Shown one piece after another: positions 3,516 through 22,237 of a stretch of 29,261 nt of DNA; the stretch's first letter is position 1; the number at the start of each line of letters is the position of its first letter. The DNA comes from a virus: IMG/VR virus record IMGVR_UViG_3300017783_000138, positions 1 through 29,261 of that record. The stretch is one strand, 5' to 3'. The notes under the pieces were generated by a model. It was not told the DNA's origin, did not search any database, and was given only the letters and a program-made list of their open reading frames with translations. A program made the position numbers and the translations under genes.

Positions 3516-6455
3516 ATGGCTAAACATTTAATTAGAGATTATGTATTTACACCTGGAGCAGCGGGGGCAGGGACAATTATTGTGCCTGGTAGATTCTCTT
3601 TAGATAAATTATTATTAATTACAAACGTAACTGATAATGTTATCATCTATAACTTCGGCGATCCATCGTTTGCAGGAACGACAGCTGTATTTACAAAGGG
3701 TCCTAATGTAACACATTTTCCTACGGCTGATCAGTCAGAGAGTGGATATTCAACTATTACATTAGCCGCTAATACATCAGCTATGAGTAGTACAGATTTA
3801 TTACAAATTTATTCTGAAGGTATGGTTGAGCAAGGACAAGTTGTTAGACCTTATCAGTTTGGTACCGATGCTATTGAGCGACAACGAATGTCGACACCTC
3901 AGTCACTTATTGATGCTGACTTTGAATATGGATTACAGCCTACAAAGTGGGCAGGCTACGGTACAATTAAAGGTTACCCATCTACATTCGATGAACCTGG
4001 TGTTGACTTAACAGTTGATACAATTACAACAGATTATAATACCACAAGTACAACAAATAGTTTAATTAGTCTGAAGTTTGTAGAAGCTGCACATGACTTG
4101 GCTGCAGGTGATGTTGTTAACGTATCAGGTTTGAATGCTGGTACCGCAGGCTTTTCTCGTGCAGATGGTAGTTTTATTATCGAATCTATACCAACCTCAC
4201 AAAGGCTTACGTATTATGCTCGTGGTATTGTTGGTACATCTAATGGCCAAAGTTTAAAAACAGAAGAAACACTTGGTCGTAGAGGTGGTTTATATGCTAA
4301 CGCATCTATCCCAGTACAATCTGCAACATCAAACGGATCTGATCCAAGTTTAATTACACTTAACTTCGCTAATCCTCATGGATTAGTGCCAGGCTGTCCT
4401 ATCCATACTGTTGTCGGTTCTGGTACAAATAAAGCAAATGCTAGTGGACCATTCTTTATTAAGAAAACTCCTTCACTAACATCAATAGAATTTACAGCTA
4501 GGCCGGGTGCATCAGTTTCTAATCCTGCTAACGTGACCTTATTTGCAATTTCTAACTCTACTATCTTACACAGGCCATCAGATGGTGGTGTTATCTTATC
4601 TACAAAGACTCCGACATATGCAGCATCGGTTGTTCGTATGTCAAAACGATTCTTTAGATATCAGTCAGGTAAAGGTTTCTTATTTTCATCTGGTACATTG
4701 TTTGCCCCTAACTATGACTTACAAAGTATTTCAGCAGCTGGTACAGCCATAGGTTCTGATATTACTGTTAAAACTGATGACATCGATCACGGTTTACAGA
4801 TAGGTGCAGAAATAACTCTTGAAGGTGTAAAAACATCTGGATACGAAGATTCATATGTAGTGTCAGGAGTTATTGATGACTATACATTTAAAGTTTCGGC
4901 AAAATCAGTTTTAGGTGATACGACAGCAATTTTAAAAGAAAGATCTAAAGTATTCGTAAATGGATGGATTGGGTCTGCTGTACGTGCCGGATTGTTTGAT
5001 GAACAAAACGGTGTGTTCTTTGAATATGATGGTAACCAAATGTTCTGTTGTGTTAGATCATCAACTGATAACATTACAGGTACAATTTCAGCAACTGCAA
5101 ACAGTAGCTCTATAACTGGTAATAATACACGATTCTCAGAACAGCTTAGAGCTGGTGATAGAATAGTTGTACGCGGTATGACGCACTTTGTTACAAAGGT
5201 AGAGAGCAATACGACTATTTTTATAACGCCTGACTATAGAGGAATAACTCAAGCTGGTGTACGTGCACAGAAGATTACGGAAAAAAGAGTTCCGCAAGCT
5301 AAGTGGAACTTAGATAAAGCTGATGGATTAGGTTCATCTGGTTATCATTGGGACTTTAACAAAATGCAAATGATCGGCATAGAATACTCATGGTATGGTG
5401 CTGGTTTTATTCATTATATGGTTCGTGGCGATGATGGTAGATGGATTTATCTACATAGAATTAAGAACAACAACGTTAACAACGAAGCTTATATGAGATC
5501 TGGTAACTTACCTGTTCGATATTCGATTGAGAACGATTCACCTATTACATTTTTGACCAATGCCGTTGATAGTAATGCCACTAGTATTCCTGCAGATAAC
5601 TTACAAGAATTTGATGATACAGGTACGTTAATGATCGATAACGAAATCATTACATATACAGGTAGAAGTGTTACTGATGGATCTGGTAACTTTACAGGTT
5701 GTACGCGCGAAGCTTCTCTTACTCAGTATCTACAGGGTAATGTTAACAGCTTGACAGCCGGTGGTAAAGTACCGCATAGTACAAATACTGGTATTATTGA
5801 GATTTCTAACACATGCTCACCAACGTTATCACACTGGGGTTCGTCGTTGATTATGGACGGTAACTTTGACTTAGACCGTGGATATATCTTTAACTATAAA
5901 AATTCACACCAGTCATCGGGTGATAGGATCAGCGCGACTCCAATTACATCATTTATGGTTAGACTTGCGCCTTCGGTATCTAACTCATCAGTTGGTCGAC
6001 TTGGTGCAAAAGACTTATTAAACAGATCACAGCTCTTGATGAAAGAGTGTGCTGCAACTCTTGGTCGTGGTTCATCTACATCTGGTGAGGTGGTTATCCA
6101 AGGTATTATCAATCCAAAGAACTTTCAAGATGCTACATGGAAAAGCTTGAATAGATCCGACGATGGTGGACAACCATCATTTGCTCAGGTTGCAGATAAA
6201 GATGATATTACATGGACAACAGGTTCATATGCGATACCTGGAGAAAGGGTGTTTGCGTTTAACTGTGCTGCTTCTCGTGCCGACTCTCTAACGACGGTGC
6301 TAAACTTAGATGAGCTAAAAGAATTATCTGGTGCTCCACTCGGTGGTGACTTTAAATATCCTGATGGTCCAGATGTTTTAGCAATTAACGCGTTCTGTTT
6401 GGCTGGGGAAGTTAGAGGAACAATTCAGCTCCGATGGGGTGAAGCTCAGGCTTAA
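3516..6455 (+). CDS. Large virion structural protein, marine T4-like type
   Basis: This is a 979-residue protein starting 9 bases after the preceding fibre gene, with an AGGAATAAAG-like ribosome site. The N-terminal region carries a segment around residues 125-155 (RMSTPQSLIDADFEYG followed by QPTKWAGYG) that I associate with large structural proteins encoded beside tail fibres in marine T4-like phages. Near residue 625 there is an IEYSWYGAGFIHYMVRG segment followed by an R-x-IYLHRIKNNN stretch. No signal peptide, membrane segment or enzymatic motif is seen. Repeated SLITLNFANPHGL / LISLKFVEAAHDL-like beta units suggest stacked Ig-like or beta-sandwich domains. A baseplate-associated or fibre-attachment role is an inference from position and size only. 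Confidence 0.75.
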   Translation: MAKHLIRDYVFTPGAAGAGTIIVPGRFSLDKLLLITNVTDNVIIYNFGDPSFAGTTAVFTKGPNVTHFPTADQSESGYSTITLAANTSAMSSTDLLQIYSEGMVEQGQVVRPYQFGTDAIERQRMSTPQSLIDADFEYGLQPTKWAGYGTIKGYPSTFDEPGVDLTVDTITTDYNTTSTTNSLISLKFVEAAHDLAAGDVVNVSGLNAGTAGFSRADGSFIIESIPTSQRLTYYARGIVGTSNGQSLKTEETLGRRGGLYANASIPVQSATSNGSDPSLITLNFANPHGLVPGCPIHTVVGSGTNKANASGPFFIKKTPSLTSIEFTARPGASVSNPANVTLFAISNSTILHRPSDGGVILSTKTPTYAASVVRMSKRFFRYQSGKGFLFSSGTLFAPNYDLQSISAAGTAIGSDITVKTDDIDHGLQIGAEITLEGVKTSGYEDSYVVSGVIDDYTFKVSAKSVLGDTTAILKERSKVFVNGWIGSAVRAGLFDEQNGVFFEYDGNQMFCCVRSSTDNITGTISATANSSSITGNNTRFSEQLRAGDRIVVRGMTHFVTKVESNTTIFITPDYRGITQAGVRAQKITEKRVPQAKWNLDKADGLGSSGYHWDFNKMQMIGIEYSWYGAGFIHYMVRGDDGRWIYLHRIKNNNVNNEAYMRSGNLPVRYSIENDSPITFLTNAVDSNATSIPADNLQEFDDTGTLMIDNEIITYTGRSVTDGSGNFTGCTREASLTQYLQGNVNSLTAGGKVPHSTNTGIIEISNTCSPTLSHWGSSLIMDGNFDLDRGYIFNYKNSHQSSGDRISATPITSFMVRLAPSVSNSSVGRLGAKDLLNRSQLLMKECAATLGRGSSTSGEVVIQGIINPKNFQDATWKSLNRSDDGGQPSFAQVADKDDITWTTGSYAIPGERVFAFNCAASRADSLTTVLNLDELKELSGAPLGGDFKYPDGPDVLAINAFCLAGEVRGTIQLRWGEAQA

Positions 6456-8739: not shown

Positions 8740-10176
8740 ATGGCTAAACTAAATTTTCCAGCGAGTCCAAGTAACGGTGATACACATACCGTTAACGGTA
8801 ATACGTATACATTTGTAAGCGATCCCGGAGTATGGAAAGCTACAACATTTGGAGATGCCCCAACCGGTCCTTCAGGTACAATTGCTATTGGTACTGTAAC
8901 AACAGGACCAGCTGGTGGCAGTGCATCCGTTTCAAATACTGGATCTAGTACAGCCGCAACTTTAGATTTTACCATACCCGCGGGTGCAGCTGGGGGAGCA
9001 GGTCCTCCTGGTCCTACTGGTCCAGCATCAACAGTAGCAGGTCCTCCTGGTGGTTCAGGTCCGCCGGGTGGTGCAGGTCCTCCTGGCCCTGGTGGTCCTC
9101 CTGGTGGTAATGGTAGTCCAGGTTCTGCAGGTACGATTGCTATTGGTACTGTTAATAGTGTACCTAATAGTTCTCCGGCTGCAGTATCAAATACTGGTAC
9201 GTCGACAGCTGCTGTACTAGATTTTAATATACCAAAAGGTAACGATGGCGCGAATGGTCCTCCGGGGCCTACCGGTCCTGATGGCCCGACGGGCCCTCCA
9301 GGTGCAGGTGCAACTAACGCAGATACAGTTGATAACTTACATGCTGCTAGTTTTTTAAGATCTGATGCAGAAGATACAACTAATTCAAAGTTAAATCTGT
9401 CATTGAATTCGACTGATGTATTAAACTTTTCTTCTAACTCTACTAATGATGCTAGAGGAATATCTTTTAACGATCGTACTGCAGTATCAGCAGACTATAA
9501 TGACGGTTATTTGAGACTTAATCAGAATAGTGAATTTAGCAATGGTGTGTATTCTCCTGGTACTATTAGAGCTGACGGAACTTTTACTGGTTCTGTATTA
9601 CTAACTAGTAAAGATATCAGATCAAATGCTTCCTCAACTTGGACTGGCAATCCTGGCGCACAAGGTAAGATCCAATATCACTCAAACAGATGGTACATTG
9701 TTGCTGACAACTCTTCTAACAGGATTGTACAATTTAGACGAGATGGTTCGGATGTGTCATACGTCGATAACTCTGGAACTTACCAAGGTAGAGCAGCGTC
9801 TGCAAACTGGGCTGACCTTGCTGAGAAATATAATGCTGATGCTGTATATGAAGAAGGTGACTTAGTTGCAGTCGGAGGTGATAAGGAAATCACCTTGTTT
9901 CAAAAAGGAATGCCTCTTGCTGGTATAATTTCTGTTGCACCTGGTCTTAGAATGAACGTAACAGAAGAAAATATGGAAGATCCTTTATGGCCATACGTCG
10001 CTCTTAAGGGTAGATTGAAATGTAAAATAAATGGATCTGCAAAAAAGGGTGATTATATAGTTACTGATGATAATGGTAAAGCTAGAGTCGCTTGTTGTCA
10101 GTCTGAGATAAATATACTAAATTTAGTAGGACTTGCCTTAGAAGACGGCGAGGATCTTATAGAAGTGAAAGTATAA
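8740..10176 (+). CDS. Collagen-like tail-fibre protein
   Basis: This 478-residue protein begins with a phage-fibre N-terminus (FPASPSNGDTHTVNGNTYTF). It has two related beta repeats of the form IAIGTV...SNTGxSTAAxLDFxIP (about residues 47-80 and 137-166). Each is followed by a collagen-like Gly-X-Y tract rich in Gly-Pro-Pro (about residues 81-132 and 166-191). A predicted fibre shaft follows. The C-terminal ~110 residues begin with the WADLAEKYNAD motif seen at the ends of many phage fibres, where such domains sit beside intramolecular-chaperone or autoproteolytic (S74/G2-type) regions. No catalytic residues for self-cleavage could be confirmed. A CC pair sits in this terminal domain. It precedes the two CHTS-tailed genes by one base, so it is the likely fibre partner. 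The GPP tracts are also possible prolyl-hydroxylase targets. Confidence 0.85.
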   Translation: MAKLNFPASPSNGDTHTVNGNTYTFVSDPGVWKATTFGDAPTGPSGTIAIGTVTTGPAGGSASVSNTGSSTAATLDFTIPAGAAGGAGPPGPTGPASTVAGPPGGSGPPGGAGPPGPGGPPGGNGSPGSAGTIAIGTVNSVPNSSPAAVSNTGTSTAAVLDFNIPKGNDGANGPPGPTGPDGPTGPPGAGATNADTVDNLHAASFLRSDAEDTTNSKLNLSLNSTDVLNFSSNSTNDARGISFNDRTAVSADYNDGYLRLNQNSEFSNGVYSPGTIRADGTFTGSVLLTSKDIRSNASSTWTGNPGAQGKIQYHSNRWYIVADNSSNRIVQFRRDGSDVSYVDNSGTYQGRAASANWADLAEKYNADAVYEEGDLVAVGGDKEITLFQKGMPLAGIISVAPGLRMNVTEENMEDPLWPYVALKGRLKCKINGSAKKGDYIVTDDNGKARVACCQSEINILNLVGLALEDGEDLIEVKV

Positions 10177-10177
10177 T

Positions 10178-10558
10178 ATGGCAAGTTGGGCAACATTAAA
10201 CTCAAACGCACAAACTCAGTGTGGCAATCAGCTAAGAACATTTAGCAAAAGTGCTAATATGGCTACATCTGTATACACTAATGGTGCTGCTGGTATGGCA
10301 TCAGGTACAGCTACTCATAACTATACATATTCATACTCTGATGGTGGCGGTCCTAACAGTACATACAATGGAGATTTATATAGTAGTATATACACCGGTA
10401 GTGTTATAGATGCTAGTGATGTATACAATTCATTTGGTAATTGTGTACGTGGAACAGTAGATAGAATAGAAGCTGTAACCGGAAATAAATCATATAGTGC
10501 ATTAGTATGTCATACTAGTTGTCATACAAGTTGCCATACATCGAGAGGCAGACGTTAA
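10178..10558 (+). CDS. CHTS-tailed small protein 1 (candidate radical-SAM substrate / fibre-tip protein)
   Basis: The protein has 126 residues and starts one base after the collagen-like fibre stop. It has a ~110-residue N-terminal part, beta-rich in the middle (TSVYTN...ASG...YTYSYSDGG...STYNG) with a helical end (ASDVYNSFGNCVRGTVDRIE). It then ends abruptly in three exact CHTS repeats plus RGRR (residues 111-126). The stop overlaps the next start (TAATG). Length, a long front part and a short repetitive Cys/His/Thr/Ser tail resemble ribosomally made, modified peptide precursors, and radical SAM genes follow at once. Position behind a fibre gene equally suits a tail-tip adhesin, as T4 gp38 follows gp37. 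No homologue was recognised. Function is inferred. Confidence 0.8.
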   Translation: MASWATLNSNAQTQCGNQLRTFSKSANMATSVYTNGAAGMASGTATHNYTYSYSDGGGPNSTYNGDLYSSIYTGSVIDASDVYNSFGNCVRGTVDRIEAVTGNKSYSALVCHTSCHTSCHTSRGRR

Positions 10559-10938
10559 TGCCCATTTCAGTATCAGATATTAATAGTTATGTACAGTCTT
10601 ATGGTGGTCCTCAACTAAGAACCTTCGATAAAACCGTTACTTTTACCACAACAGTATATACTAATTCAGATGCTGTATTGGCATCAGGTCAAACTAGTGC
10701 CAGTACAAATCATAGATTTGAATATACAGGCGCAAATAATAACGTATATAATGGCTACTATGATGGCGGGATAAGCGCTGGAAGCCTAATATATGCACAA
10801 GATATTGTTGATACTATGGAAGATATTGTACGTCGTACAGTAGATGTTATTGAAGGAAGATATACTAATAGATCACAAAACCATCAGATATGTCATACAA
10901 GTTGCCATACAAGCTGTCATACATCGAGAGGAAGACGC
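10508..10938 (+). repeat. Paired 48-bp direct repeats encoding CHTSCHTSCHTSRGRR
   Basis: Two direct repeats at 10508-10555 and 10891-10938 encode identical 16-residue tails, followed in both cases by TAATG. They differ at several third codon positions (for example ACT/ACA, AGT/AGC, GGC/GGA, CGT/CGC) yet give the same protein. Within each, the 12-bp unit TGY-CAY-ACN-AGY/TCN occurs three times. The silent differences argue for selection on the peptide rather than a very recent copy. Confidence 0.9.
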
Positions 10939-10941
10939 TAA
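10558..10941 (+). CDS. CHTS-tailed small protein 2, tandem paralogue
   Basis: I start this at the ATG that overlaps the upstream stop (TAATG at 10556-10560), giving 127 residues. An upstream ATG at 10519 would only read the previous gene's repeat out of frame. It aligns along its length with its neighbour: QLRTF-K, T-VYTN, ASG, VYNG, I-AGSLI-A-D, VRRTVDVIEG. It ends in the identical 16 residues CHTSCHTSCHTSRGRR (residues 112-127). The body has diverged widely while the tail is kept exactly, so the tail is the constrained part. Its own stop overlaps the start of the first radical SAM gene by one base (TAATG), coupling substrate candidate and enzyme. It has no cysteine outside the tail. Confidence 0.82.
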   Translation: MPISVSDINSYVQSYGGPQLRTFDKTVTFTTTVYTNSDAVLASGQTSASTNHRFEYTGANNNVYNGYYDGGISAGSLIYAQDIVDTMEDIVRRTVDVIEGRYTNRSQNHQICHTSCHTSCHTSRGRR

Positions 10942-12107
10942 TGACTATGCAAAAATCATATTGCAAACAGATGAGGTACTCAGGACCTGAAAGTCTTGCT
11001 CCATCTGATGCATACAAATTCGATGTTTTGATTCAAATGGAAGTCCTGGCAGGATGTGATCATGGCTGTCTTGGATGTTTCGTAGATAAGAATATTGATC
11101 CTGATATGAATCAGGCAATTATTAATCGTGCCAAAGAATTGGCTGATGGGGTAAAGAGAACAGGGCTTAACCTACGTGAATTTGTTATCGGCCCGACTGA
11201 TTTCTTTACAGCCGAAAATACAAAAGCTGTATTAAATAATTCTGCAGTACAAGATATCATGCGTGAGCATACCGGTGCACGTATCGCAGCTCCGGCTAAA
11301 TTCGATAAAGTATCGATGGAGAAACTAAAAGAGATCTTTGCTGTACTCGATGACGAAGATAAGTACCGACGTGATATGATCATTGAGTTTATCATGCCGA
11401 TTGGGCGTGTGTCTGAGATGCTAGACGATGATGACTACTATAAAGAAGTTATGAAGAAAGTAGAATTTTTTAAGAATGATACACCAAAACAAATGGACTG
11501 GTCATGGACTCTACAGGCTTCTAATGTAGTTGGTAAGAAGATAGACAAAGAAACATATAACAGAATTATTGACAAATCTGTGAACGAATATGAAACAATC
11601 GTTGAGATGAATCCGGCTTTCTCACGTGCACGTAATCAGTTAATCAAGAGAAATAACTTGTTTGCATGGAATAATTTCCTAGGTAAAGTTATAGATAAAG
11701 ACAATGCTAACGAGACTGTAATGTCTATGGCAAATCTATATTGTAACTCTATCAACTTTGTAGGATTAACTATCGTACCAGGTGAGAATGGACCTACAAC
11801 TCATTTGAATGTAATGTTGCACGAACAAGCGTTCTTCTTAGAGAATAAGAACTTGGATGTAACAGGATTATCATTTGAAGAAATACTACAACGTAAGAAT
11901 GAACTCGTAACAAAGGGTATAAATAAATCATCACAAGTAAAAGATTGTTCAGATTGTCAGTTCGCAATTGCGTGTGCAAATAGATTAGTATTCGAAGCGC
12001 AAGATTCATTAAATGTAAATGGTTGTGTAATGAATAAAGACGTACTTGATCTATATAATCCGTATGACTTTACATGGAACGATGACGCAGAAAGGGCAAT
12101 GGCATGA
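10941..12107 (+). CDS. Radical SAM enzyme, IGPTD-type paralogue 1
   Basis: The start is taken at the ATG overlapping the previous stop, giving 388 residues. An ATG 51 bases upstream only reads the CHTS repeat in another frame. C39, C43 and C46 form the CX3CX2C loop that binds the SAM-ligating [4Fe-4S] cluster. The segment after the first helix reads VIGPTDFF (GPTD at 84-87), where SPASM-type enzymes usually have GGE. C336, C339, C345 and C362 form a CX2CX5CX16C set, enough for one auxiliary cluster of the twitch/SPASM kind. Together these suggest a peptide- or protein-modifying radical enzyme. Its immediate coupling to the CHTS-tailed proteins makes them its likely substrates (inference). It overlaps the next gene by ATGA. 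Confidence 0.87.
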   Translation: MTMQKSYCKQMRYSGPESLAPSDAYKFDVLIQMEVLAGCDHGCLGCFVDKNIDPDMNQAIINRAKELADGVKRTGLNLREFVIGPTDFFTAENTKAVLNNSAVQDIMREHTGARIAAPAKFDKVSMEKLKEIFAVLDDEDKYRRDMIIEFIMPIGRVSEMLDDDDYYKEVMKKVEFFKNDTPKQMDWSWTLQASNVVGKKIDKETYNRIIDKSVNEYETIVEMNPAFSRARNQLIKRNNLFAWNNFLGKVIDKDNANETVMSMANLYCNSINFVGLTIVPGENGPTTHLNVMLHEQAFFLENKNLDVTGLSFEEILQRKNELVTKGINKSSQVKDCSDCQFAIACANRLVFEAQDSLNVNGCVMNKDVLDLYNPYDFTWNDDAERAMA

Positions 12108-13192
12108 TTGGTCAAAATTTATATTATTTAAATAACAAAAAGTATTGTACAACATTCTCGAATCTTGATACAGTACTGCATGAATTTAATTCATTCTACC
12201 ATACATCTACTCCACGTAAAATGGTATTTGTACAAATGAAGGCGTCAAGAGAAAACGCAGGTAGTCTTGCAGAAGACAGTGTTATCACTACTGTACATGC
12301 TAGTGTGCCATCTGATCGTGTAGTCATAGAATTTAAACCATATGAAGATGTAGATAACATAGATTATTTACAAAATAGTGAGAAAGTTGTTTTATTATTC
12401 TGGGATGATTTTGATCAGCTTAGCGTGTTAGGTAGATATGTTGCTGGTCTGCTCAAGGCATCTAATTTTTATCCTAATCTTTCTAACGAAGAATTTAGTT
12501 CTATGGCCGGTGACTTTGTTCATAAAGTAACCGAAGCTGATTGGATGTTTAATTATATGAAAGTCAATGATGACTTAGTAAATGTAAGTGCTTATGTTCA
12601 ATCTGAGATAACAACTAATGGATTATATTCTAATACGTTTCAAAATGGTGCAAACTTTAGTTATGATTTATTATTTTATTTAAATGATTATCATACAAAT
12701 GCATCTGTTCAAGGATTAATTAAAGAGAAATTTGTGATTCATTCTAATACAATGGCTAAAGATGTGATGGAACACTTTACTTCACGTCGACATTACATGG
12801 CATATTTCTTATCAGTAATTGACTGGATGAATGCAAATAGTTATCCTGTTGATAAAGATGCATGGGTAAAAGAAACATATTTGAATCTTGCAAACAAAGG
12901 TCAATATACACAGGCATTCTATAAGATGGAAGAGCAATGGAATCGTGTAAAAGATGATGCAAACTTTATTACGGCTCATCAGTCTAAAGCAGATTCAGAC
13001 CCTGATGGCTGGGAATATATGGATTTATATACAGAATTTAAGAATGTATTTCCAATTGTTCGTAAAGTACTTCAACAAGATTACGATATGGATAATCTAA
13101 GTTCAGATATAAAACTAATCAATACAGATGTGCAATTCTTTTCAAGGAGACAAAATAGGATACCGTATTTAATTCACAAATACCCACTATAG
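12104..13192 (+). CDS. Unknown protein inside radical SAM operon
   Basis: This is a 362-residue protein starting in the ATGA overlap with the first radical SAM gene. It is soluble, mixed alpha/beta and rich in aromatic residues. It has a single cysteine (C15) and no cluster, nucleotide-binding or catalytic motif that I recognise. The N-terminal ~130 residues look like a degenerate Rossmann-like alternation of strands and helices (KMVFVQMKAS, DRVVIEFKPYE, EKVVLLFWDDFD). The remainder is predicted helical. It could be a partner or substrate-presenting subunit for the neighbouring radical SAM enzymes, or a diverged transferase. Neither is shown by the sequence. Confidence 0.75.
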   Translation: MIGQNLYYLNNKKYCTTFSNLDTVLHEFNSFYHTSTPRKMVFVQMKASRENAGSLAEDSVITTVHASVPSDRVVIEFKPYEDVDNIDYLQNSEKVVLLFWDDFDQLSVLGRYVAGLLKASNFYPNLSNEEFSSMAGDFVHKVTEADWMFNYMKVNDDLVNVSAYVQSEITTNGLYSNTFQNGANFSYDLLFYLNDYHTNASVQGLIKEKFVIHSNTMAKDVMEHFTSRRHYMAYFLSVIDWMNANSYPVDKDAWVKETYLNLANKGQYTQAFYKMEEQWNRVKDDANFITAHQSKADSDPDGWEYMDLYTEFKNVFPIVRKVLQQDYDMDNLSSDIKLINTDVQFFSRRQNRIPYLIHKYPL

Positions 13193-13200
13193 GATATATT

Positions 13201-13944
13201 ATGGCAGAAAAACTTTACACGTTACCTCTTGCTCCGCAAGACCTTGTAGCTATTTACAAAGAAAAAGATAAAACAGATAGCGATAAAGAGTTTTGTCTTT
13301 ATGTTGATTATGATAAGACAACTGAAAAACTTAGTGATCAACACATTCTCATTTATCTTGCAAATACAAATTTTAAAACCACTTTCGATAAAATAACACC
13401 TACATTACTTGTAGAGTTTATTAAATCTAATTTTTTAGTTAATGCTCCTATTCTAGCCAGAGTATTAACTATTGTTTTACGCCGATATTTAAAATACGAA
13501 TTGACTCCTCCGGAAGCAGTACTATCAAATTTAGTTTTTAATGAAGAGCAAATTAATGAATTTATAAAACTGAATGGAAATTTATTAGAAGATTTAATTA
13601 CTGCTATACAAGAAACGTTTTCTTTTGTGCTTTATAAAATAAATGAAATTACTGAAGAAGGTAAAGAACCTGAATTAGAAAACCTTATAAAAGAAATAGA
13701 GATAACTGATACGGCTAGTAATATAGGTCCAAACATTGCTAGACTAGTTACAGAATCAGTTGATGCAATGTATCTTGTTTTTCATGTACGTGGTATTCAG
13801 CCTTCGTTTAATAAACAGGTATTTAATGATAATCCTAAGTTTTATGGTAAAGATTTAATGTTTATTTTTACTCAAACAGGAATAACGGATGAAATCGTTA
13901 AGATGCTACCAGAAGGATTCTGGCATGATAGTAACGTTAAATAG
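13201..13944 (+). CDS. Unknown acidic helical protein inside radical SAM operon
   Basis: This 247-residue protein starts after an AGGAT ribosome site. It is acidic and mostly alpha-helical, with one cysteine (residue 32) and no recognised motif. The segment LVEFIKSNFLVNAPILARVLTIVLRRYLKYEL (about residues 75-107, shown here in pieces as LVEFIKSNF, APILARVLTIVL and RRYLKY) is an amphipathic-to-hydrophobic helical pair but not a convincing membrane anchor. It overlaps the following radical SAM gene by 20 bases. An accessory or recognition subunit is possible, but no evidence beyond position supports it. Confidence 0.72.
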   Translation: MAEKLYTLPLAPQDLVAIYKEKDKTDSDKEFCLYVDYDKTTEKLSDQHILIYLANTNFKTTFDKITPTLLVEFIKSNFLVNAPILARVLTIVLRRYLKYELTPPEAVLSNLVFNEEQINEFIKLNGNLLEDLITAIQETFSFVLYKINEITEEGKEPELENLIKEIEITDTASNIGPNIARLVTESVDAMYLVFHVRGIQPSFNKQVFNDNPKFYGKDLMFIFTQTGITDEIVKMLPEGFWHDSNVK

Positions 13945-14947
13945 CACTAATGCAGGATATTATACATATGATCCTGAGCTTTCACCCATAAACCAAGACT
14001 TTCTAAGAACCGAAATAAATTTAGATATTCTGCACGGATGCGATCAAATGTGTCCGGGTTGTTTCATTCCTCGTAAAAACTTTACGAAGGCAGATGATTT
14101 AGAAACATTATATAATCTATTAGCTGGAGGTCAATATCATCCTGACGAGATTGTTATTGGACCAACTGATATATTTGATGCACAAAACTTTGAGGAGATA
14201 ATGAACCATGAGTATATGTTTAAACTTTATGAAATTTCTGCAGTTGGATTCACGTCTACACTTCTACAACCATATTGGGTAATAAAAGAAAAACTAGAGA
14301 AGATCTGGAGTTTATACAGGCATATTAAAAGAATACCTGATATAGATTTTAAGATTGTCCTTGATGTAGACAAATATCTAAACGGCGAATTAGATGACTG
14401 GTATAAGAAACTAAAATTATTTGAACATGGCTCTGTACAGTTTAGAGTAAATTACTATAAAGGTGTCTTCGATAAGATTAGTTATAATGAATTATGTGAA
14501 AAGACATATGAAGACTTCAATGCACCGGTCGTTATAACACCATCATTTCTTACAGATAGAAATGCAAGAGGTAAAGTCAAACAGCACTTAGCTAATTTTC
14601 GTAAAGATCTCGTAGATCAAAAGATTGATTCAAAGTGGAGAAATTATTATACATTTTTCGATGCAAAGTTTAATGGACTAGGTTGTCAGAATTACAGTTT
14701 TTATGGCGGCAAATTGTATGTGAATCCGTTCTTGTATGATGCCATAATTCAGAGAACACCATTCTTCGAAACAACAATGGATGAAAACAAATTATATGAT
14801 AATATAGAATACGCACAACAAGTAGATGACTGTAATGGATGTGAGTTCATGATGAGTTGTGCTGAACGTAATGTGCACATGTATATGGAATCAAGAGACT
14901 TGACTAGTTGCGTAGCAATTAAAGAGTACATGCATGCCACTCATTAA
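13925..14947 (+). CDS. Radical SAM enzyme, IGPTD-type paralogue 2
   Basis: I prefer the ATG at 13925 (340 residues) over the one at 13889 because AGAAGGA at 13911-13917 sits 7 bases before it. It then aligns with the first paralogue so closely that C39, C43 and C46 fall at identical residue numbers. The motif after the first helix is VIGPTDIF (GPTD at 79-82). C303, C306, C312 and C329 give CX2CX5CX16C. The middle region (about 90-290) is strongly diverged from the other paralogues, as expected if each acts on a different site or substrate. The start overlaps the upstream gene by 20 bases and the end overlaps the next gene by 14. Confidence 0.87.
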   Translation: MIVTLNSTNAGYYTYDPELSPINQDFLRTEINLDILHGCDQMCPGCFIPRKNFTKADDLETLYNLLAGGQYHPDEIVIGPTDIFDAQNFEEIMNHEYMFKLYEISAVGFTSTLLQPYWVIKEKLEKIWSLYRHIKRIPDIDFKIVLDVDKYLNGELDDWYKKLKLFEHGSVQFRVNYYKGVFDKISYNELCEKTYEDFNAPVVITPSFLTDRNARGKVKQHLANFRKDLVDQKIDSKWRNYYTFFDAKFNGLGCQNYSFYGGKLYVNPFLYDAIIQRTPFFETTMDENKLYDNIEYAQQVDDCNGCEFMMSCAERNVHMYMESRDLTSCVAIKEYMHATH

Positions 14948-16091
14948 GAATAATCTTTACTATGAACTAACAAGTGAAACTCAAACTAAACCAGTATCAG
15001 CAGTAAAGGTTCAATTAGATGTTTTGGACGGTTGTCATCATAAGTGTCCTGGCTGTTTCGTACACCGAAGAGGCAATGCTAGTGATGAAAATGAGCTTCG
15101 AAGAGCAGAAGACTTTATTAGAACTATTACTAACCAAGGAATTTTAGTAGACGAGATACTTATCGGACCTACAGACTTTTTAGCTAGTGAGAATTTCTAT
15201 GAAGTAATGCCACAGTTAGAGCGCGTTATAAATGATAATTCCCCCATATTGGCTTTTGTTTCTACTCTTATTGACGGTGACATCGTGCGCTTTTGTGATT
15301 ACGTCACTAGGAGGATAAACATTGACACCGAAATAGAAATTGGTATTGCCACAAATCCACATAAATTTTTCGAAAAAAAGTATGTACAACACATCAAGGA
15401 TGTGCTAAAGTATATTGATGAAAACCTCGAACATGAGGTGACTTACACATTTGTTGTAAACATTAAAGACTATGGTTTAGACTATTCGGCCTTGCACGAT
15501 CAAGCAGTCAAACAGTTTAATACTATCCTAGACTTTATTCCTTCCGTATCACGTTCACATAAATCTAATATTATCCTTTCTACTCTTGATAAGTTCAATG
15601 AGTATTTTAATGTATTGAGTAAAGATACAAAGCTTAATAATATTATGGTCGACCATTCACATGGTGGCATGAATTATCAGGTTTTGAATTATAAGAAAGG
15701 CGAATGGTATATCAGTCCTTTTATGTATGAGAACATGGCAATATATGATGATATGTTTAAAATAAAATCATTCAATGATATAATACCAATAATAGAATCA
15801 CAACAATATCTGGCAAAAGGTACCGAATGTGAAACGTGTGAATTATATTTTTCTTGCTATAACAGGAAGATAATCTTACTCAGAGATTATTTAGGTGAAG
15901 ATAGGTGTATTGCTCCGAAAGAAAATATGATTAGAAATATAGATAACTATAACCAGGCCGCTCAAATAATGTATCAATGGGATGGCTATAGTGTCGACAA
16001 CGATAAGAAAGGTTATCGTAAAAAGTTTCTCGTTACAAAAGATAACGATCCTGAATTAGAAAGAATCAAGAGTATATCATATGTTAAGTAA
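14934..16091 (+). CDS. Radical SAM enzyme, IGPTD-type paralogue 3
   Basis: This protein has 385 residues and AAAGAG 7 bases before the ATG. C34, C38 and C41 form CX3CX2C in the context GCHHKCPGCFVHRRGN. LIGPTDFL follows (GPTD at 78-81). C299, C302, C308 and C325 form CX2CX5CX16C. After the last cysteine there is a ~60-residue charged extension absent from the other members (ending in a Lys/Asp/Glu-rich stretch), which might contact a partner or substrate. The CPGCFV-x-RRGN signature is shared with paralogue 4, which suggests a closer relation between those two. It overlaps the next gene by 11 bases. Confidence 0.87.
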   Translation: MPLIKNNLYYELTSETQTKPVSAVKVQLDVLDGCHHKCPGCFVHRRGNASDENELRRAEDFIRTITNQGILVDEILIGPTDFLASENFYEVMPQLERVINDNSPILAFVSTLIDGDIVRFCDYVTRRINIDTEIEIGIATNPHKFFEKKYVQHIKDVLKYIDENLEHEVTYTFVVNIKDYGLDYSALHDQAVKQFNTILDFIPSVSRSHKSNIILSTLDKFNEYFNVLSKDTKLNNIMVDHSHGGMNYQVLNYKKGEWYISPFMYENMAIYDDMFKIKSFNDIIPIIESQQYLAKGTECETCELYFSCYNRKIILLRDYLGEDRCIAPKENMIRNIDNYNQAAQIMYQWDGYSVDNDKKGYRKKFLVTKDNDPELERIKSISYVK

Positions 16092-16788
16092 CTATCCTCC
16101 ACTTACTACACCAGAAGAACAACATAGATGGGCTATGTTTGTTGAAGGTAATGCATACCGAGGAGAAGATGGTAGAACTTATAATCATATTGATGAGGAC
16201 GGTAATTACATCAGCACGTTTGTAAGTCAATACTCAGATATAATGCAGGAGAATCTTGAGCCAGGTGTTAAGGATGCTGTTCTTAAATTACATGAAAAAG
16301 GATATCTAACATTTACAAGTTGCCAAGGCCATGAGGATTCTAAGTACAGATACATAGGTGTATTATTTAATACAAATGAGCAAAAGCAAGAATTTATTAA
16401 AAACATAAATGCTTTAAGATGCAATATCCATTGGTATGATAACGTTATTAATTCATTAGAAAGACCATGTAAAGAATTTCCTAAATATGTTGAAGGTGCA
16501 ATAACTATACATGTAATATGGGATGATCAATCGTATCACGATACTACTCGAATAGAAAGAAGGAAAAGACCTTATACTGATCTTGAACTAACAAAGTTTT
16601 GGAATGTTCTAACTTGTAGAAACTATAATAATTACGAAGCGGTTATATTTTCATTTGGCTATAGAATGGTTGAAAGAAGTTTGGTCGAAGTAGCATGGAA
16701 ACATTTTTTTTATAAAGAGAATAAAGTTTCAGATGCATATAGTGACTTCTGTTCTAAGGTAGATGTATTACCGGAGTATCTTGCATAA
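16081..16788 (+). CDS. Unknown protein with SCQGH motif
   Basis: This 235-residue protein is wedged between two radical SAM genes and overlaps both (11 bases upstream, TAATG downstream). Residues ~66-105 read VLKLHEKGYLTFTSCQGHED-SKYRYIGVLF. The pattern 'helix, G-Y/F-x-T-x-x-SCxGH, strand' recurs in small uncharacterised bacterial and phage proteins and loosely resembles the TxSCSG loop of TYW3-type tRNA-modifying proteins, but I cannot assign a function. The Cys-x-Gly-His is a plausible metal or active site. A later aromatic and basic C-terminal half shows no known motif. Its role in the cassette is unknown. Confidence 0.72.
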   Translation: MLSNYPPLTTPEEQHRWAMFVEGNAYRGEDGRTYNHIDEDGNYISTFVSQYSDIMQENLEPGVKDAVLKLHEKGYLTFTSCQGHEDSKYRYIGVLFNTNEQKQEFIKNINALRCNIHWYDNVINSLERPCKEFPKYVEGAITIHVIWDDQSYHDTTRIERRKRPYTDLELTKFWNVLTCRNYNNYEAVIFSFGYRMVERSLVEVAWKHFFYKENKVSDAYSDFCSKVDVLPEYLA

Positions 16789-17933
16789 TGCTAAATGACG
16801 AATGGAAAAAGATTGTCATAGATGGTAATAGACTAGAAGAGTTTACTGCCGTATCGTCTATGACTCAATATAAGATTCAACCTCAGCTTGAGTTGCTAGA
16901 GGGTTGTGCCTATATGTGTCCAGGATGTTTTGTAAAACGTAGAGGCAATTGGAATCCATACTCGGTACATTTATTTTGGCGACTAGCAAATGAACTTGCA
17001 GGTAGAGAAGATATTGTATTAGATGATGTTGTGATTGGACCAACAGATTTCTATGGAGCAGAGAATTTAGATTCGATTATAGAAGATGTAAAGCTATCCG
17101 AAGGCATAGTAATGATGCCTGAAAATAATCGTAACATACAACACAACTGTTCTATACTTGGATCCTTGTCAGAGAAGGACATTGAGGGAAAGATACGCAA
17201 GATAGAAAGGTCGCTCCTGGGTAGTGTGGTCAAGTCTTGGGATGTACAGGTGGCGATAGATGTTAAACGTCTACTATACGACGAAGCATATAGAAAAGCA
17301 TTAGATAACAGAATTGAAACATTTAAAAACTCATCTATGAACTATGAAATATCAATGGCAACGAATATTGTAGATGGTATAGAGAATATTATATTTGATG
17401 CTATAGATCTGGTAAGAGATAAGTATGAAACTGTAATAGAGATTCTACCATCAGTTGTAAGATCTTTTGATTATAGTCCTAAGCATGGTGAAAAGTTATT
17501 TGAATGGAATGATATGCTTACTAAGCTTAGTGAAAACTCAGCTCGCTTTAAGAGTATATTTCATTTTTTGCAAGGTGATGTATCTCATAAAGCCTTTCAT
17601 TACTCGGTCATAAATATACACAATGGTAGAATCTTTATGGCACCGTTCATTTATGAAAATGGACAAATATATAATGAAGCCTTTTTAATAGACGTAGAAA
17701 AGGGTGGTGATATAGTCGATCATATATTATCATATAAAGAATGGATTGTAAACCACCAAATTAATAATAGTAAATTAACTGAATGCCACAGTTGTAAATA
17801 TTTAAATATATGTTCGCATAGATTGATACCTCGGGTTATGGAAACAGTATTTCAAAATAGAAAAGAGTGTATACTAAATAAAGATGTAATAGCATTGTAC
17901 GATGATGAGGCCTACAATGGGAATAGTTACTAA
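16788..17933 (+). CDS. Radical SAM enzyme, IGPTD-type paralogue 4
   Basis: This 381-residue protein starts in a TAATG overlap. C40, C44 and C47 form CX3CX2C in GCAYMCPGCFVKRRGN. VIGPTDFYGAEN follows (GPTD at 84-87). C333, C336, C342 and C361 form CX2CX5CX18C, two residues longer in the last gap than the other members. The central region contains EILPSVVRSFD, matching the (D/E)-x-(I/N)PSxxR segment found at the same place in paralogues 3 (DFIPSVSRS) and 5 (TLNPSFFRA) and, as EMNPAFSRA, in paralogue 1. This is a second family-specific motif, presumably in the late strands of the barrel. Confidence 0.87.
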   Translation: MLNDEWKKIVIDGNRLEEFTAVSSMTQYKIQPQLELLEGCAYMCPGCFVKRRGNWNPYSVHLFWRLANELAGREDIVLDDVVIGPTDFYGAENLDSIIEDVKLSEGIVMMPENNRNIQHNCSILGSLSEKDIEGKIRKIERSLLGSVVKSWDVQVAIDVKRLLYDEAYRKALDNRIETFKNSSMNYEISMATNIVDGIENIIFDAIDLVRDKYETVIEILPSVVRSFDYSPKHGEKLFEWNDMLTKLSENSARFKSIFHFLQGDVSHKAFHYSVINIHNGRIFMAPFIYENGQIYNEAFLIDVEKGGDIVDHILSYKEWIVNHQINNSKLTECHSCKYLNICSHRLIPRVMETVFQNRKECILNKDVIALYDDEAYNGNSY

Positions 17934-18933
17934 TAACAAAGCTCATGCTCAGGCTAGTGACGACTTTGATTTATCGTTTAATGATGGACATAAAGTAAAG
18001 GTACAATTTAATTGTGAGGTACTATCCGGCTGTGAGTTTAAATGCAAGGGCTGCTTCGTTAACAAACTAGGATCTAATGTAGGGTCCTTCGAGAAACTAA
18101 ACAACGCAATAGATTTATTTAAGAATAATGGTTATCACGTCTCTACTATCAATATTGGCCCTACTGACCTGTTTGGCAATAATAATATTATATCTCTTTT
18201 AGAGGATGAGGTCTTTAGAGAATGCTTATCAAAAGTAACTACGATACAGTTTGTTACTACACTAGAGAACGTTGATTTACAAGTTATCGATAAACTAAAC
18301 TCAATTAAAAAACGTGATGGCTTTATGTATGACTGTAATATTCAGTTACAGCCACCTGTCAATTGGGCAGACATAAAAGATAAGATGAGTGCACTAGATT
18401 TATTCTGGGATGATCTTAACTATTACTTCGTTTATAATATGGGTAATGATGATGAGTACAATGAGCAGGTACTCGATATGTCTTTAGTAACAGATAAAGT
18501 ATTCGATTCTATACTCACACTAAATCCATCATTTTTCAGAGCACAAAAATCTAAAGTACATAAACACCTAATCGAAAAATGGAAGAAATATGACTTTAGT
18601 GATGATCTATATCCAAAGACAATTGTAGACCAAGCCCAAGGTGGCAGCCTAGAATTAAATTATACTTATTGTAATGATAGATTCTTCTGGACACCATTCG
18701 TATATGATATAGTACTCATAGGTACGGATGAGTTTGAGGTTAAGGATCCGGCCGACTTAAATAGTTGGGAAGAACCTAAAACAAACATGTTTACAAAACA
18801 GTTAATGTATGATACAGAGAATTGTAGCGGATGTGTTAATCAGATGACATGTATAGACAAAGGTGTGCTTAGCTATATGCAACATCATGCTCTAACTGCA
18901 TGCGTGTTTCCTGGTGTTGTTGCTGATAATTAA
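17917..18933 (+). CDS. Radical SAM enzyme, IGPTD-type paralogue 5
   Basis: ATGs exist at 17902, 17905 and 17917. I choose 17917 (338 residues) because GAGG at 17907-17910 sits 6 bases before it, and because the CX3CX2C cysteines then fall at 39, 43 and 46, the same numbers as in paralogues 1 and 2. The motif is GCEFKCKGCFVNK (Lys where others have Pro or Leu). NIGPTDLFG follows (GPTD at 81-84). C303, C306, C312 and C329 form CX2CX5CX16C. It overlaps the previous gene by 17 bases. Its last 65 bases overlap, tail to tail, the end of a radical SAM gene on the other strand, with no room for a separate terminator. Confidence 0.86.
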   Translation: MGIVTNNKAHAQASDDFDLSFNDGHKVKVQFNCEVLSGCEFKCKGCFVNKLGSNVGSFEKLNNAIDLFKNNGYHVSTINIGPTDLFGNNNIISLLEDEVFRECLSKVTTIQFVTTLENVDLQVIDKLNSIKKRDGFMYDCNIQLQPPVNWADIKDKMSALDLFWDDLNYYFVYNMGNDDEYNEQVLDMSLVTDKVFDSILTLNPSFFRAQKSKVHKHLIEKWKKYDFSDDLYPKTIVDQAQGGSLELNYTYCNDRFFWTPFVYDIVLIGTDEFEVKDPADLNSWEEPKTNMFTKQLMYDTENCSGCVNQMTCIDKGVLSYMQHHALTACVFPGVVADN

Positions 18934-19945
18934 ACCACATTCTCATTACACAATCGGGTAGATCTCTTTCACGATTCTTCCAATCCCATTGTGTATAACA
19001 TCTAAATCCACATTTATTCCACCACTGACACGATAGACACCCGTGCTCATCCATGTACGCCTGCATCATAGAAGCGTTGTCACCTCTATTCAATGGAGTG
19101 TTAAAGTCTGTTTTAGTATAACGATTCCACCTACAATTTGATGTACTATTATTTGGAAATATGGTAACTTTATTGAGTGCCATACAATGCATATGGTTTG
19201 ATTCGTTCTTTATAAGGTCTGCCATAGGATTAATGTCAGGGTAATTATGGTAAACAAACTTAAGGAAATCAAGATATTGAGAATCAGATGGAATTAGATG
19301 GTCGAACCCCTTATCAGGTATATAGTCATCAAAATAGAAATTATCAAACTTATTATACAAATAGTGGAAATACTCATCATCATCTGCCATAAACCTCTGT
19401 ATAGACGGAACTGTTGCAACCATATTAATTGATGTAATATAGTCTGCAAAGTACTCAATGTTTCTTCCATAGGGTCCTTTTACTGGTCGGCCATCAAAGT
19501 CATATGAACAAATAATATAAGATGGGATGCTTGCTTCATTTAAATCATCTAATAGTTTTTGTACTCTTTCTTGTTTACTAAATTGAAATGATGTAACCCA
19601 TACGACTTTAATTTCCATATCATGTTCATCATATATCTTTTTAATCTCTATAAGCAAATCATAATAATCGTTATATGCCCAATGAGATATTCTATCTTGG
19701 AATAATTCTCCGCCGACCATATTGATCTGACAGGTCTTGACCATTCCAACCATTTTCTTTATATGAGCTTCTACGAGTGGTATCTTAGAGAACATATCTT
19801 CTCGTGATAATCCGACCGTAGATTTTTTGTCATGATGACAGAACGCACAATTCAAGTGACAGTTCTCAAACAAGGTAAGTTCAATCTCACCTAAGTTTGG
19901 TCTTTTGGTTTCTAATAGCGATTTTGTAAAATCAAAGTTGTCCAA
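18869..19945 (-). CDS. Radical SAM/SPASM-domain protein
   Basis: The protein has 358 residues if the TTG at 19945 is the start. A stop codon lies directly before it in frame and no ATG occurs before the radical SAM motif. AGAAGAG on the minus strand lies a few bases upstream. C29, C33 and C36 form CX3CX2C (ENCHLNCAFCHH), and NMVGGELF is the GGE motif. The C-terminus has C-x16-C, then CX2CX5CX3C (CLSCQWWNKCGFRC), then a final Cys: a full seven-cysteine SPASM domain able to hold two auxiliary clusters. SPASM enzymes typically modify ribosomal peptides or proteins. It is the last gene of the minus operon and overlaps the upstream gene by 14 bases. Confidence 0.85.
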   Translation of the reverse strand: MDNFDFTKSLLETKRPNLGEIELTLFENCHLNCAFCHHDKKSTVGLSREDMFSKIPLVEAHIKKMVGMVKTCQINMVGGELFQDRISHWAYNDYYDLLIEIKKIYDEHDMEIKVVWVTSFQFSKQERVQKLLDDLNEASIPSYIICSYDFDGRPVKGPYGRNIEYFADYITSINMVATVPSIQRFMADDDEYFHYLYNKFDNFYFDDYIPDKGFDHLIPSDSQYLDFLKFVYHNYPDINPMADLIKNESNHMHCMALNKVTIFPNNSTSNCRWNRYTKTDFNTPLNRGDNASMMQAYMDEHGCLSCQWWNKCGFRCYTQWDWKNRERDLPDCVMRMWFNYQQQHQETRMQLEHDVAYS

Positions 19946-20333
19946 TTAGCATCTCTTCTTCGTAATACTTTCTCACGTCTGGAACCATACCTTGTTCATT
20001 ATTTTTCCAGTTAGCATACCAAAGAATATCGTCATATATAGTTTGTTCTTCACTATAAACTTTAAAATGTGGATCATGAGGTAACAAATCTATATCATTT
20101 AATACATCAAGGAAGTTTTCATTAAAGTCATTAGCAATCCAGTTTGCGTAGCATATTGCCACAAAGTATGACTTAGCTGGGTAAATCCACTCATCTACTT
20201 TCTCATGAAAATGTAGTACGGCATCATCAACTATAGAATCAGGTTTCCATACTATATCTACCTGATTTAAATCATCTGTGTGTTCAGTCGCCATCAAGTG
20301 ATAAGCTTTAGACCTTGCCTTCCATTCTTGCAT
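19932..20333 (-). CDS. Unknown small acidic protein in minus radical SAM operon
   Basis: This 133-residue acidic protein is rich in Trp and Tyr and predicted mostly helical. AGGA lies 10 bases before the ATG on the minus strand. It overlaps the upstream radical SAM gene by 26 bases and the downstream one by 14. It has one cysteine and no recognised motif. Its size and position between two SPASM-like enzymes would suit a recognition protein or a substrate, but it lacks the wing-helix pattern I would expect for a clear RiPP recognition element and lacks a repetitive tail. The function is unknown. Confidence 0.7.
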   Translation of the reverse strand: MQEWKARSKAYHLMATEHTDDLNQVDIVWKPDSIVDDAVLHFHEKVDEWIYPAKSYFVAICYANWIANDFNENFLDVLNDIDLLPHDPHFKVYSEEQTIYDDILWYANWKNNEQGMVPDVRKYYEEEMLIGQL

Positions 20334-21222
20334 AATCTAGTAGTCCTTTATATCCATTACATCCGTTTATAAGATCTTTAACATATCTATAGTGTTCAGT
20401 TAAACATTTGCCATAATAATCACATGTTCTACAAATATCTGATACATTATCTTCTTTCTCTTTATGAGTCCATTTTATATAATCATTATACGTGTCTAAC
20501 TCTAAAAAGTATTCGTTATCATTCTTATCAAATTCTAATACGCCAAACTTACCGCTCGGTGTTATATAAACATGGTCATCACTAAATGCATTATAGTGGC
20601 CAAGTAAGCAATCAGTTATCCGAGCAGCGTTTTCGAAATGAAACGCAAATTGTGTAGGATGCTCAATCCATTTTATAACAAAATCCTCAAAGTCTTTATG
20701 ACTGACATTCTGTTGATTAGCTTGATTAGATGAGTATGGTTTTATTTCTACACTCTCTACATTTCTAATCATATTAAATGTGTGGACCATGAAGTCCACA
20801 TCCATCTCAATAACTTTCTTAGATGCAAGGACAAGAACTGCTAACTCTTTGTTAGCATCCATCATATTATTTAAGACATGCTGTTGTTTTTCTCTCGCAT
20901 CAAAGTCATAGGAAACGGATAAACTAATATCATCATCACGAAAAAAATCTGGGAATGCAGATAAGTTTGTGTTTATATTTATTTCATCGTCATAGTATTT
21001 ACGAATAATATCTTTCATAGCATAGAAATAATCTGGTTTAAGTAACCCTATTTCTCCGCCATATAAATCAACGTGATTTATCTCTGGTACTTCTGATAAC
21101 CTTTGGTCTAATACATCTAAGTCAATTTTATTTCTATCACCTAATTGTTCGGGTGTTAGATAACAAAAGTCACACCTAAAGTTGCAATAGTAAGTCGGAT
21201 TGATCGATAGATTCATCGACAT
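20308..21222 (-). CDS. Radical SAM protein, short SPASM-like
   Basis: This 304-residue protein has a start fixed by AAGGAG 9 bases upstream of the ATG at 21222 (a second ATG at 21216 is too far from it). C13, C17 and C20 form CX3CX2C (YYCNFRCDFCY). LYGGEIGL supplies the GGE motif. The C-terminal part has CX2CX5C (CRTCDYYGKC) and a later Cys, with a His where a full SPASM domain would have its CX3C partner. A single earlier Cys precedes a CLLGHYNAF stretch. It may therefore hold one or two auxiliary clusters in a reduced domain. It overlaps the upstream gene by 47 bases, meaning its start is embedded in the coding end of its neighbour. Confidence 0.85.
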   Translation of the reverse strand: MSMNLSINPTYYCNFRCDFCYLTPEQLGDRNKIDLDVLDQRLSEVPEINHVDLYGGEIGLLKPDYFYAMKDIIRKYYDDEININTNLSAFPDFFRDDDISLSVSYDFDAREKQQHVLNNMMDANKELAVLVLASKKVIEMDVDFMVHTFNMIRNVESVEIKPYSSNQANQQNVSHKDFEDFVIKWIEHPTQFAFHFENAARITDCLLGHYNAFSDDHVYITPSGKFGVLEFDKNDNEYFLELDTYNDYIKWTHKEKEDNVSDICRTCDYYGKCLTEHYRYVKDLINGCNGYKGLLDYARMEGKV

Positions 21223-22237
21223 ACGGTACTACTCCTTTAGGGTCCATTCCATTTAATTCTAAGATACGAGGTGCCATGTTTTTCATTTGACGACAATGTT
21301 TCTCTACTGTACCTTCTCGTTTCATATCTCGTACTGTCTTTTTACAACCATTACATATCTCAAACATAGGACATGTATAACAAGCCATTTTCATTGTCTG
21401 TATATTAGGATCGTTTTGCAATGGTGTTTGCATGTCACCATTCATTTCTTCTTCAAAATTAATAGGATAGTCTAGGTCATCAGCTAACGATCCACACGAA
21501 TAATAGTCACCGCCGGGATTAAATGCACGTATACCCTCATCACACTTACGGTTTTGTGGACAAGTTGTGAATCCTCCTTTAAGCCTTTTCATCATTTGCT
21601 TTGTGTTAAATTCCCAATGATATAAGTCAGCGTCATATACATCTAGATATATCTGATAAATTTTACTTAACTGATATGTTGTACCTTGTACTCCTGATGC
21701 CATAGCATAGTTTAGTTTACATTCAACGTTCATTTCTTTGGCCAGTTTGACGTTATCTAATGCACGATAATCATTCATATCTGTAAGAACTGCTATGAAG
21801 TCAGGTCGCTCACCACAATATTTTAACATTGCGTCTGACACATCCCAAAAGTCTTTCTCAGTAAATTCTGTAAAATCACCTTTAAGTCTGCCTCCACCAT
21901 ATTGAAATGATGTACAGATACCCATACGGGGGTGATTAAATAGATCTACCCATTTTTCTGGTTTTACATAAAACGGCCATAGGTTTGTAGTAAACGAAAT
22001 ATGTGCAGGATATCCATGATCGTCTAAATGCTTTATAATTTCCCAATAGTATTCCGGCTTCACCATTAATGGATCACCACCATTTATTATTAAAGAATTA
22101 GTATCAGGGTATCTTTTAAGAAATTTAAATATATAATTCAGATCTAATAGACCGGCATTATTCGGGTCTATTGCTGTTGAAGAACAGAAAGAACATTTAA
22201 AATTACAGGCCTCTGTAGGCTTTACAATTAAATCCAT
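21176..22237 (-). CDS. Radical SAM/SPASM-domain protein
   Basis: This 353-residue protein has AAGGA 6 bases before the ATG and overlaps the upstream gene by 10 bases. C11, C15 and C18 form CX3CX2C very close to the N-terminus (EACNFKCSFCSS). LIINGGDPLM is the SAM-binding GGE/D-P motif. The C-terminus has CPQNRKC, a Cys in DYYSCGSL, then CX2CX5CX2C (CYTCPMFEICNGC) and a late HC. This is a full SPASM set. The NPGGDYYSCGSLADD segment is the usual SPASM strand pair before the auxiliary cluster. The substrate is unknown. Peptide or protein maturation is the commonest role of this class. Confidence 0.87.
   Translation of the reverse strand: MDLIVKPTEACNFKCSFCSSTAIDPNNAGLLDLNYIFKFLKRYPDTNSLIINGGDPLMVKPEYYWEIIKHLDDHGYPAHISFTTNLWPFYVKPEKWVDLFNHPRMGICTSFQYGGGRLKGDFTEFTEKDFWDVSDAMLKYCGERPDFIAVLTDMNDYRALDNVKLAKEMNVECKLNYAMASGVQGTTYQLSKIYQIYLDVYDADLYHWEFNTKQMMKRLKGGFTTCPQNRKCDEGIRAFNPGGDYYSCGSLADDLDYPINFEEEMNGDMQTPLQNDPNIQTMKMACYTCPMFEICNGCKKTVRDMKREGTVEKHCRQMKNMAPRILELNGMDPKGVVPYVDESIDQSDLLLQL

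Follow-up and report, generated by a model that had tools for sequence, protein, structure and literature searches.

Phage proteins with a conserved Cys-His-x-Ser tail, encoded behind a tail fibre and accompanied by radical SAM genes, as candidate substrates of virion protein modification

Why a virus should encode two adjacent proteins with the same Cys-rich C-terminus, directly between a tail fibre and a large set of radical SAM (rSAM) enzymes, is the question raised by a stretch of viral DNA of 29,261 nucleotides (IMG/VR record IMGVR_UViG_3300017783_000138, positions 1 to 29,261; in the following, the window). The two candidate substrates, proteins A (10178–10558, plus strand, 126 aa) and B (10558–10941, plus strand, 127 aa), are full-length paralogues for which relatives were found. 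The ORF of protein A begins one base past the gene of the tail-fibre-like protein, and TAATG overlaps join A to B and B to the first rSAM gene. According to translation and alignment, the last 16 residues of both proteins are CHTSCHTSCHTSRGRR (10508–10555 in A, 10891–10938 in B), and the 48 coding nucleotides differ at six positions, all of them silent. The first-pass annotation had described such a pair of paralogues with identical tails and silent DNA differences, placed directly behind a tail-fibre gene and coupled to an rSAM gene that is followed by eight more, and all of this agrees with the present analysis. Its remark that the bodies differ widely was too strong, as A and B are 47% identical over their full length and approximately 39% identical without the tail (counted by hand from the alignment). 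It is considered probable that the two are structural proteins of the adsorption apparatus and that SPASM-type rSAM enzymes of the phage modify their unfolded Cys/His/Ser tail.

The tail is far better conserved than the rest of the protein. Among 43 relatives of the A/B pair, the mean pairwise identity rises from 0.41 in the body to 0.87 in the tail, where the entropy is only 0 to 0.16 bit in 13 of the 16 columns (those of C, H, S, R and G); a chance origin of the shared tail is thereby excluded. The tail even stays unchanged over bodies with pairwise identities as low as 8%. Two architectures can be distinguished. Class A comprises paired proteins of approximately 127 aa each, while class B comprises single proteins of approximately 170–300 aa, whose genes usually come last after those of the fibre, the cupin and the T1 rSAM (a core family introduced below), in this order. 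The C-terminal 95 residues of both classes are related (hhalign probability 99%), and tail identity is 0.87–0.89 across the two classes, with body means of 0.41 and 0.31, respectively. Both architectures occur together in one contig of 151 kb, IMGVR_UViG_3300025138_000014, which also holds 13 rSAM matches.

Pfam contains no family for the CHxS-tail proteins. In silico modelling of a class B member with AlphaFold yielded a confident structure (pLDDT 87.6, pTM 0.81), in which most of the body exceeds a pLDDT of 90 and the last 10 tail residues reach approximately 50. The class A model is weaker (pLDDT 74.6, pTM 0.54), which limits the fold search of the PDB with this body. Neither the class A nor the class B body returned a PDB match. 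In a viral structure library, the matches were restricted to a small number of phage proteins without characterisation, including a 296-aa protein of Agrobacterium phage Atu_ph07 whose length is compatible with gp170, discussed below.

Nine IMG/VR contigs yielded direct relatives of protein B, and the gene order is kept wherever the contig is long enough. The DNA pattern for CHxSCHxSCHxS-RG detected at least 120 viral contig stretches. In 117 of the 118 readable stretches among the matches listed, which come from related contigs, the motif forms the exact C-terminus and ends in RGRR; tandem pairs account for 33 of the 118. The sole case with another ending is a 504 kb contig, IMGVR_UViG_3300028886_000026, where a variant tail with five repeats, CHTNCHSSCHSSCHSSCHGSSGGW, ends in SSGGW (positions 560–1141 of its stretch). 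Divergent rSAM genes lie near this variant.

The tail also occurs in isolated phages, namely the Burkholderia phages FLC6, FLC8 and S13, Pseudomonas phage DT01, Atu_ph07 and Sinorhizobium phage Phosso; the carriers thus include the jumbo phages Atu_ph07, FLC6, DT01 and Phosso. These proteins were reached only via the rSAM genes and by reading the gene neighbours, and tblastn searches of phage records gave no match for the tail protein, the 30-residue tail peptide or the 247-aa partner protein. A T1-type rSAM is present in seven phage records, and all of them belong to the isolated tail-bearing phages. Thirteen pattern matches were obtained in GTDB genomes. Ten are true tail proteins; each of them is located in a MAG or bin contig and accompanied by rSAM genes. 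The matches in Paraburkholderia and Ectothiorhodospiraceae do not correspond to tail-protein ORFs; the one in Sandaracinaceae lies inside a 530-aa ORF, without an RGRR end and without rSAM genes in the stretch. These 13 matches provide no evidence for a chromosomal version of the system.

The window contains nine rSAM genes, five on the plus and four on the minus strand. The iron-sulfur motif CxxxCxxC and C-terminal auxiliary-cluster cysteines, CxxCx5C...C, are invariant in all 20 aligned sequences (nine from the window and eleven from phages S13 and DT01). The plus-strand genes encode proteins of the IGPTD type, assigned by alignment and, for the first, also by the cluster survey: protein 1 (10941–12107), protein 2 (13889–14947, start uncertain, with ATG 13925 possible), protein 3 (14934–16091), protein 4 (16788–17933) and protein 5 (17902–18933). 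All five (10941–18933) carry IGPTD at the position of the GGE/GGD motif of the other enzymes, a motif which contacts SAM in other rSAM enzymes. The minus-strand genes encode the core families T2 (FExCxLxCxFC; 18869–19945), T4 (YYCNFRCDFCYLT; 20308–21222), T3 (CNFKCSFCSST; 21176–22237) and T1 (TETCNLNCFHCFTS; 22228–23259). All four were assigned by alignment and cluster survey, with Pfam in addition for T3 and T4 and the SPASM profile for T1. T3 and T4 belong to the radical SAM superfamily with PF04055 scores above the cut-off, and the IGPTD-type proteins score below it. The SPASM profile TIGR04085 (cut-off 27 bits) is passed by T1 with 30.0 bits and by its homologue in phage S13 with 31.9 bits; T3 stays under the cut-off with 18.3 bits. 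A combination of rSAM and SPASM domains is the architecture of peptide- and protein-modifying enzymes, as established for SPASM families.

Several further genes accompany the rSAM genes. A cupin (23195–23677, minus strand) is a core partner and, like a 247-aa protein of phrog_20767 (13201–13944, plus strand) and a small protein of 133 aa (19932–20333, minus strand), is common to the window and the isolated phages. Another conserved partner (12104–13192, plus strand), to which no function is assigned, has no recognised homologue in the isolated phages. Two 2OG-Fe(II) oxygenases (PF13759, 23783–24349; PF13640, 24346–24903; both plus strand) are frequent, not constant, partners. Within the rSAM clusters of phages S13 (stretch 14105–15282) and FLC6 (stretch 21316–22529), two genes are annotated as dihydrofolate reductase.

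How tightly the tail and the rSAM genes are linked was assessed in both directions. Among the matches listed, rSAM genes lie within 108 of the 118 readable stretches, and for the remaining ten and two further, cut stretches they are found elsewhere in the contig (12/12). The tail is hence accompanied by rSAM genes in 120 of 120 contigs among these matches, the contigs being related and the counts not independent. As a control, 47 T4-like contigs with a minimum length of 25 kb were picked via an unrelated structural protein. Three of them carry the tail, each with the rSAM cluster, while 42 of the 44 tail-less contigs are devoid of such an rSAM gene. The two exceptions are a contig with rSAM genes at its edge and one with a single weak match that belongs to the CTCNCNY/F system described below. 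The contrast corresponds to a hypergeometric p of approximately 6e-4, calculated by hand from contigs that are related and not independent. Conversely, the tail was found in 13 of 17 contigs, 15 of which had been selected by their T1 rSAM and two by a cut tail; the four tail-less ones are consistent with contigs ending short of the tail locus. Many tail-bearing genomes without rSAM genes nearby had been named as an observation that would speak against the tails as substrates, and rSAM genes were present in every contig tested.

It is the four minus-strand families that accompany the tail constantly. T1–T4 are present in 20–21 of the 21 clusters read far enough (13–14 of 14 single-tail and 7 of 7 paired clusters). 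The first-pass annotation had asked whether the tail always sits beside IGPTD-type genes; this holds for rSAM genes as such, but the IGPTD type occurs in only 5 of the 14 single-tail clusters and is absent from nine, including those of Atu_ph07 and Phosso. IGPTD-type enzymes are therefore ruled out as the key partner and are accessory. Since the T1 gene adjoins the tail gene in single-tail clusters, T1 is the best candidate for the modifier of the tail, as judged from gene order. The number of rSAM enzymes, four to nine, is large for one tail of 16 residues, and some may act on other proteins.

A second type of tail emerged from the control sample. In contig IMGVR_UViG_3300021961_000024, the same type of fibre is followed by a 177-aa protein (stretch 3542–4075) ending in CTCNCNF repeats, in place of a CHxS protein; three rSAM genes of other kinds come next, together with a 2OG oxygenase. 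A scan for the CTCNCNY/F motif detected 28 viral stretches, most of which have rSAM genes of other types nearby (TSTCNLACTYCSEG, TEKCNLGCPYCYVA, TNKCNLACTYCYED). Eight of these contigs, mostly those whose detected stretch has few or no rSAM genes, were searched over their full length, and such genes are present in all eight, in one of them only weakly. From their sequences, the CTCNCNY/F proteins look like a parallel tail-modification system. Two unrelated Cys-repeat tails are thus each paired, independently, with an rSAM set of their own, which speaks for the tails being the substrates. In Campylobacter phage CP220, an rSAM gene with a relationship to the CTCNCNY/F system is followed, approximately 7 kb downstream, by a sequence encoding the Cys-rich C-terminus CDYCYNCVICENCGECEDCDHCNNC (stretch 16842–17213).

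These pairings also bear on the possibility that the tail forms a metal-binding tip without being modified, with Fe or Zn held by Cys and His of several chains, and that the rSAM enzymes act on another target, such as the collagen-like fibre. Phage fibres have HxH tips, the Cys/His pairs of the tail are regularly spaced, and both a collagen-like fibre and 2OG oxygenases are present in the locus. However, the rSAM genes track the tail: tail-less T4-like relatives are without them, and the fibre-bearing control contig with a different Cys-repeat tail has different rSAM enzymes. Moreover, 2OG genes were not recognised in the clusters of Atu_ph07 and Phosso. An unmodified metal tip is thus rather unlikely.

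The fibre setting itself concerns the location of the tail proteins. The product of 8740–10176 (plus strand) matches PHROG tail-fibre families with an E-value of 1.7e-23, contains collagen-like repeats and has a Peptidase_G2-like C-terminus ending in EVKV. In most relatives, the gene after the fibre is that of the tail protein or the cupin. The collagen-like fibre and the two 2OG-Fe(II) oxygenases (23783–24903) share one locus, and hydroxylation of fibre proline or lysine by these oxygenases is possible.

For Atu_ph07, a virion proteome is available, in which most virion proteins derive from the clusters CDS 31-76, 170-215 and 284-329 (PMC6102473). The tail protein of this phage is gp170, the first gene of the cluster CDS 170-215 defined there by mass spectrometry, and the numbering agrees, since the record and PMC6102473 alike assign the major head protein to gp215. 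As the cluster starts exactly at gp170 and ends at the detected capsid protein gp215, this boundary strongly, though indirectly, suggests that gp170 was detected in the virion. The C-terminal tryptic peptide of gp170 ends in CHSSCHASCHNSR. The association with the fibre gene and, in Atu_ph07, with the virion-proteome cluster favours the earlier suggestion of a virion protein over a secreted peptide.

In a classical secreted RiPP pathway, the tail would be cleaved off, exported and directed against competitors or the host surface, for instance in superinfection exclusion. The long front part, the short Cys-rich C-terminal repeat and the SPASM enzymes do resemble RiPP precursors and their maturases. 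Nevertheless, neither a leader protease nor an export gene was recognised by Pfam among the cluster genes, and the body is predicted to be a large folded domain of 110–280 aa rather than a short leader. Its gene has a fixed position behind the tail fibre and, in Atu_ph07, lies at the edge of a virion cluster. A secreted RiPP is accordingly unlikely. That the rSAM cluster serves metabolism or counter-defence (by nucleotide chemistry or in a viperin-like manner) and lies near the fibre by chance is highly improbable, as the weak viperin similarity of the core rSAM enzymes (PADLOC, E 2e-8 to 7e-4) reflects the common rSAM core, prokaryotic viperin (NF038283/PADLOC pVip) is rejected with scores of at most 37.4 bits against a cut-off of 180, the C-terminal SPASM-type cysteines are invariant and the link to the tail is constant.

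The reading of modified adsorption proteins can be compared with known systems. The His-Xaa-Ser system (HxsA/B/C/D), reportedly described by Haft and Basu in 2011, likewise combines paired rSAM enzymes with a substrate that contains HxS repeats. PMC9062424 also mentions this system. In the present system, however, a Cys precedes each HxS, three repeats are followed by RGRR, and the setting is a phage fibre locus. Membership was rejected, as the window rSAM proteins reach 30.4 of 370 bits for HxsB (TIGR03978) and 24.6 of 267.9 bits for HxsC (TIGR03977). The rSAM and SPASM architecture is shared with the SPASM peptide maturases PapB, DynA and DarE and with sulfatase maturase. The best named matches are PapB for T1 (E 6.4e-12) and DynA for the phage S13 homologue (E 4.3e-13), but the scores of 45 versus 340 and 49 versus 450 bits are far under the family cut-offs. 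Unlike in ranthipeptides, the CHxS tails contain no CX3D motif and the substrate would retain a large folded body; an assignment to this class was rejected on the PapB model NF047865 (45.3 versus 340 bits) and on the absence of Asp and Glu from the tails.

On the virion side, the closest comparison is gp38, the tip adhesin on the tail fibre of T2- and S16-type phages. It is likewise a separate protein encoded directly behind the tail fibre, and it sits on the fibre tip. The tail proteins differ from gp38 in being without a fold match in the PDB, and gp38 is not known to be associated with rSAM genes or to have a Cys tail.

In the proposed mechanism, A and B would belong to the virion as components of the adsorption apparatus and be made beside the tail fibre. 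Each would consist of a body that folds and a C-terminal peptide that does not, (Cys-His-x-Ser)x3-Arg-Gly-Arg-Arg. This peptide would be the substrate of a dedicated phage rSAM/SPASM set consisting of T1–T4, the cupin and two conserved partners, with the IGPTD-type enzymes and the 2OG oxygenases as accessories. The enzymes would alter Cys and perhaps His or Ser, most likely by cross-linking or oxidation, and the product could be a rigid tip or one that binds metal or a receptor.

Groups of phage rSAM genes have been noted before. Several are located in the host-recognition cluster of pelagimyophages (PMC7029224) and among structural or host-recognition genes of the Aeromonas phage 332-Vera (PMC12390700) and of FLC6 (PMC8066314), and a T4-like TARA genome contains 12 (PMC5332604). 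In the portions of these reports available, and in that of PMC11898562, such genes are noted without a substrate or function, and the CHxS tail is not mentioned in those of PMC7029224, PMC12390700, PMC8066314 and PMC5332604. A literature search restricted to open-access papers returned none that describes the tail.

Many large phages encode one or two such tail proteins next to a fibre gene, with an rSAM set in every contig tested, which suggests a chemical modification of the particle tip by the phage itself; no earlier description of this was found in the open-access literature. The findings offer a concrete candidate substrate for the puzzling rSAM gene groups of jumbo and marine T4-like phages, and the system is testable in the cultured phages Atu_ph07, FLC6, S13, DT01 and Phosso. 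If the proposal is true, the enzymes would be a new source of catalysts for short C-terminal Cys-His-x-Ser tags on folded proteins and could become portable tools. A wider proposition, for which the chances appear evenly balanced, is that large phages run RiPP-like rSAM chemistry on their own virion proteins, where two or more Cys-repeat tails of unrelated type (CHxSx3-RGRR and CTCNCNYxn), each with its own rSAM set in the fibre locus, would give rise to chemically modified adsorption tips, a new class of virion maturation. Phages would then build post-translationally modified peptides into the particle, which would be new for both virion assembly and host recognition.
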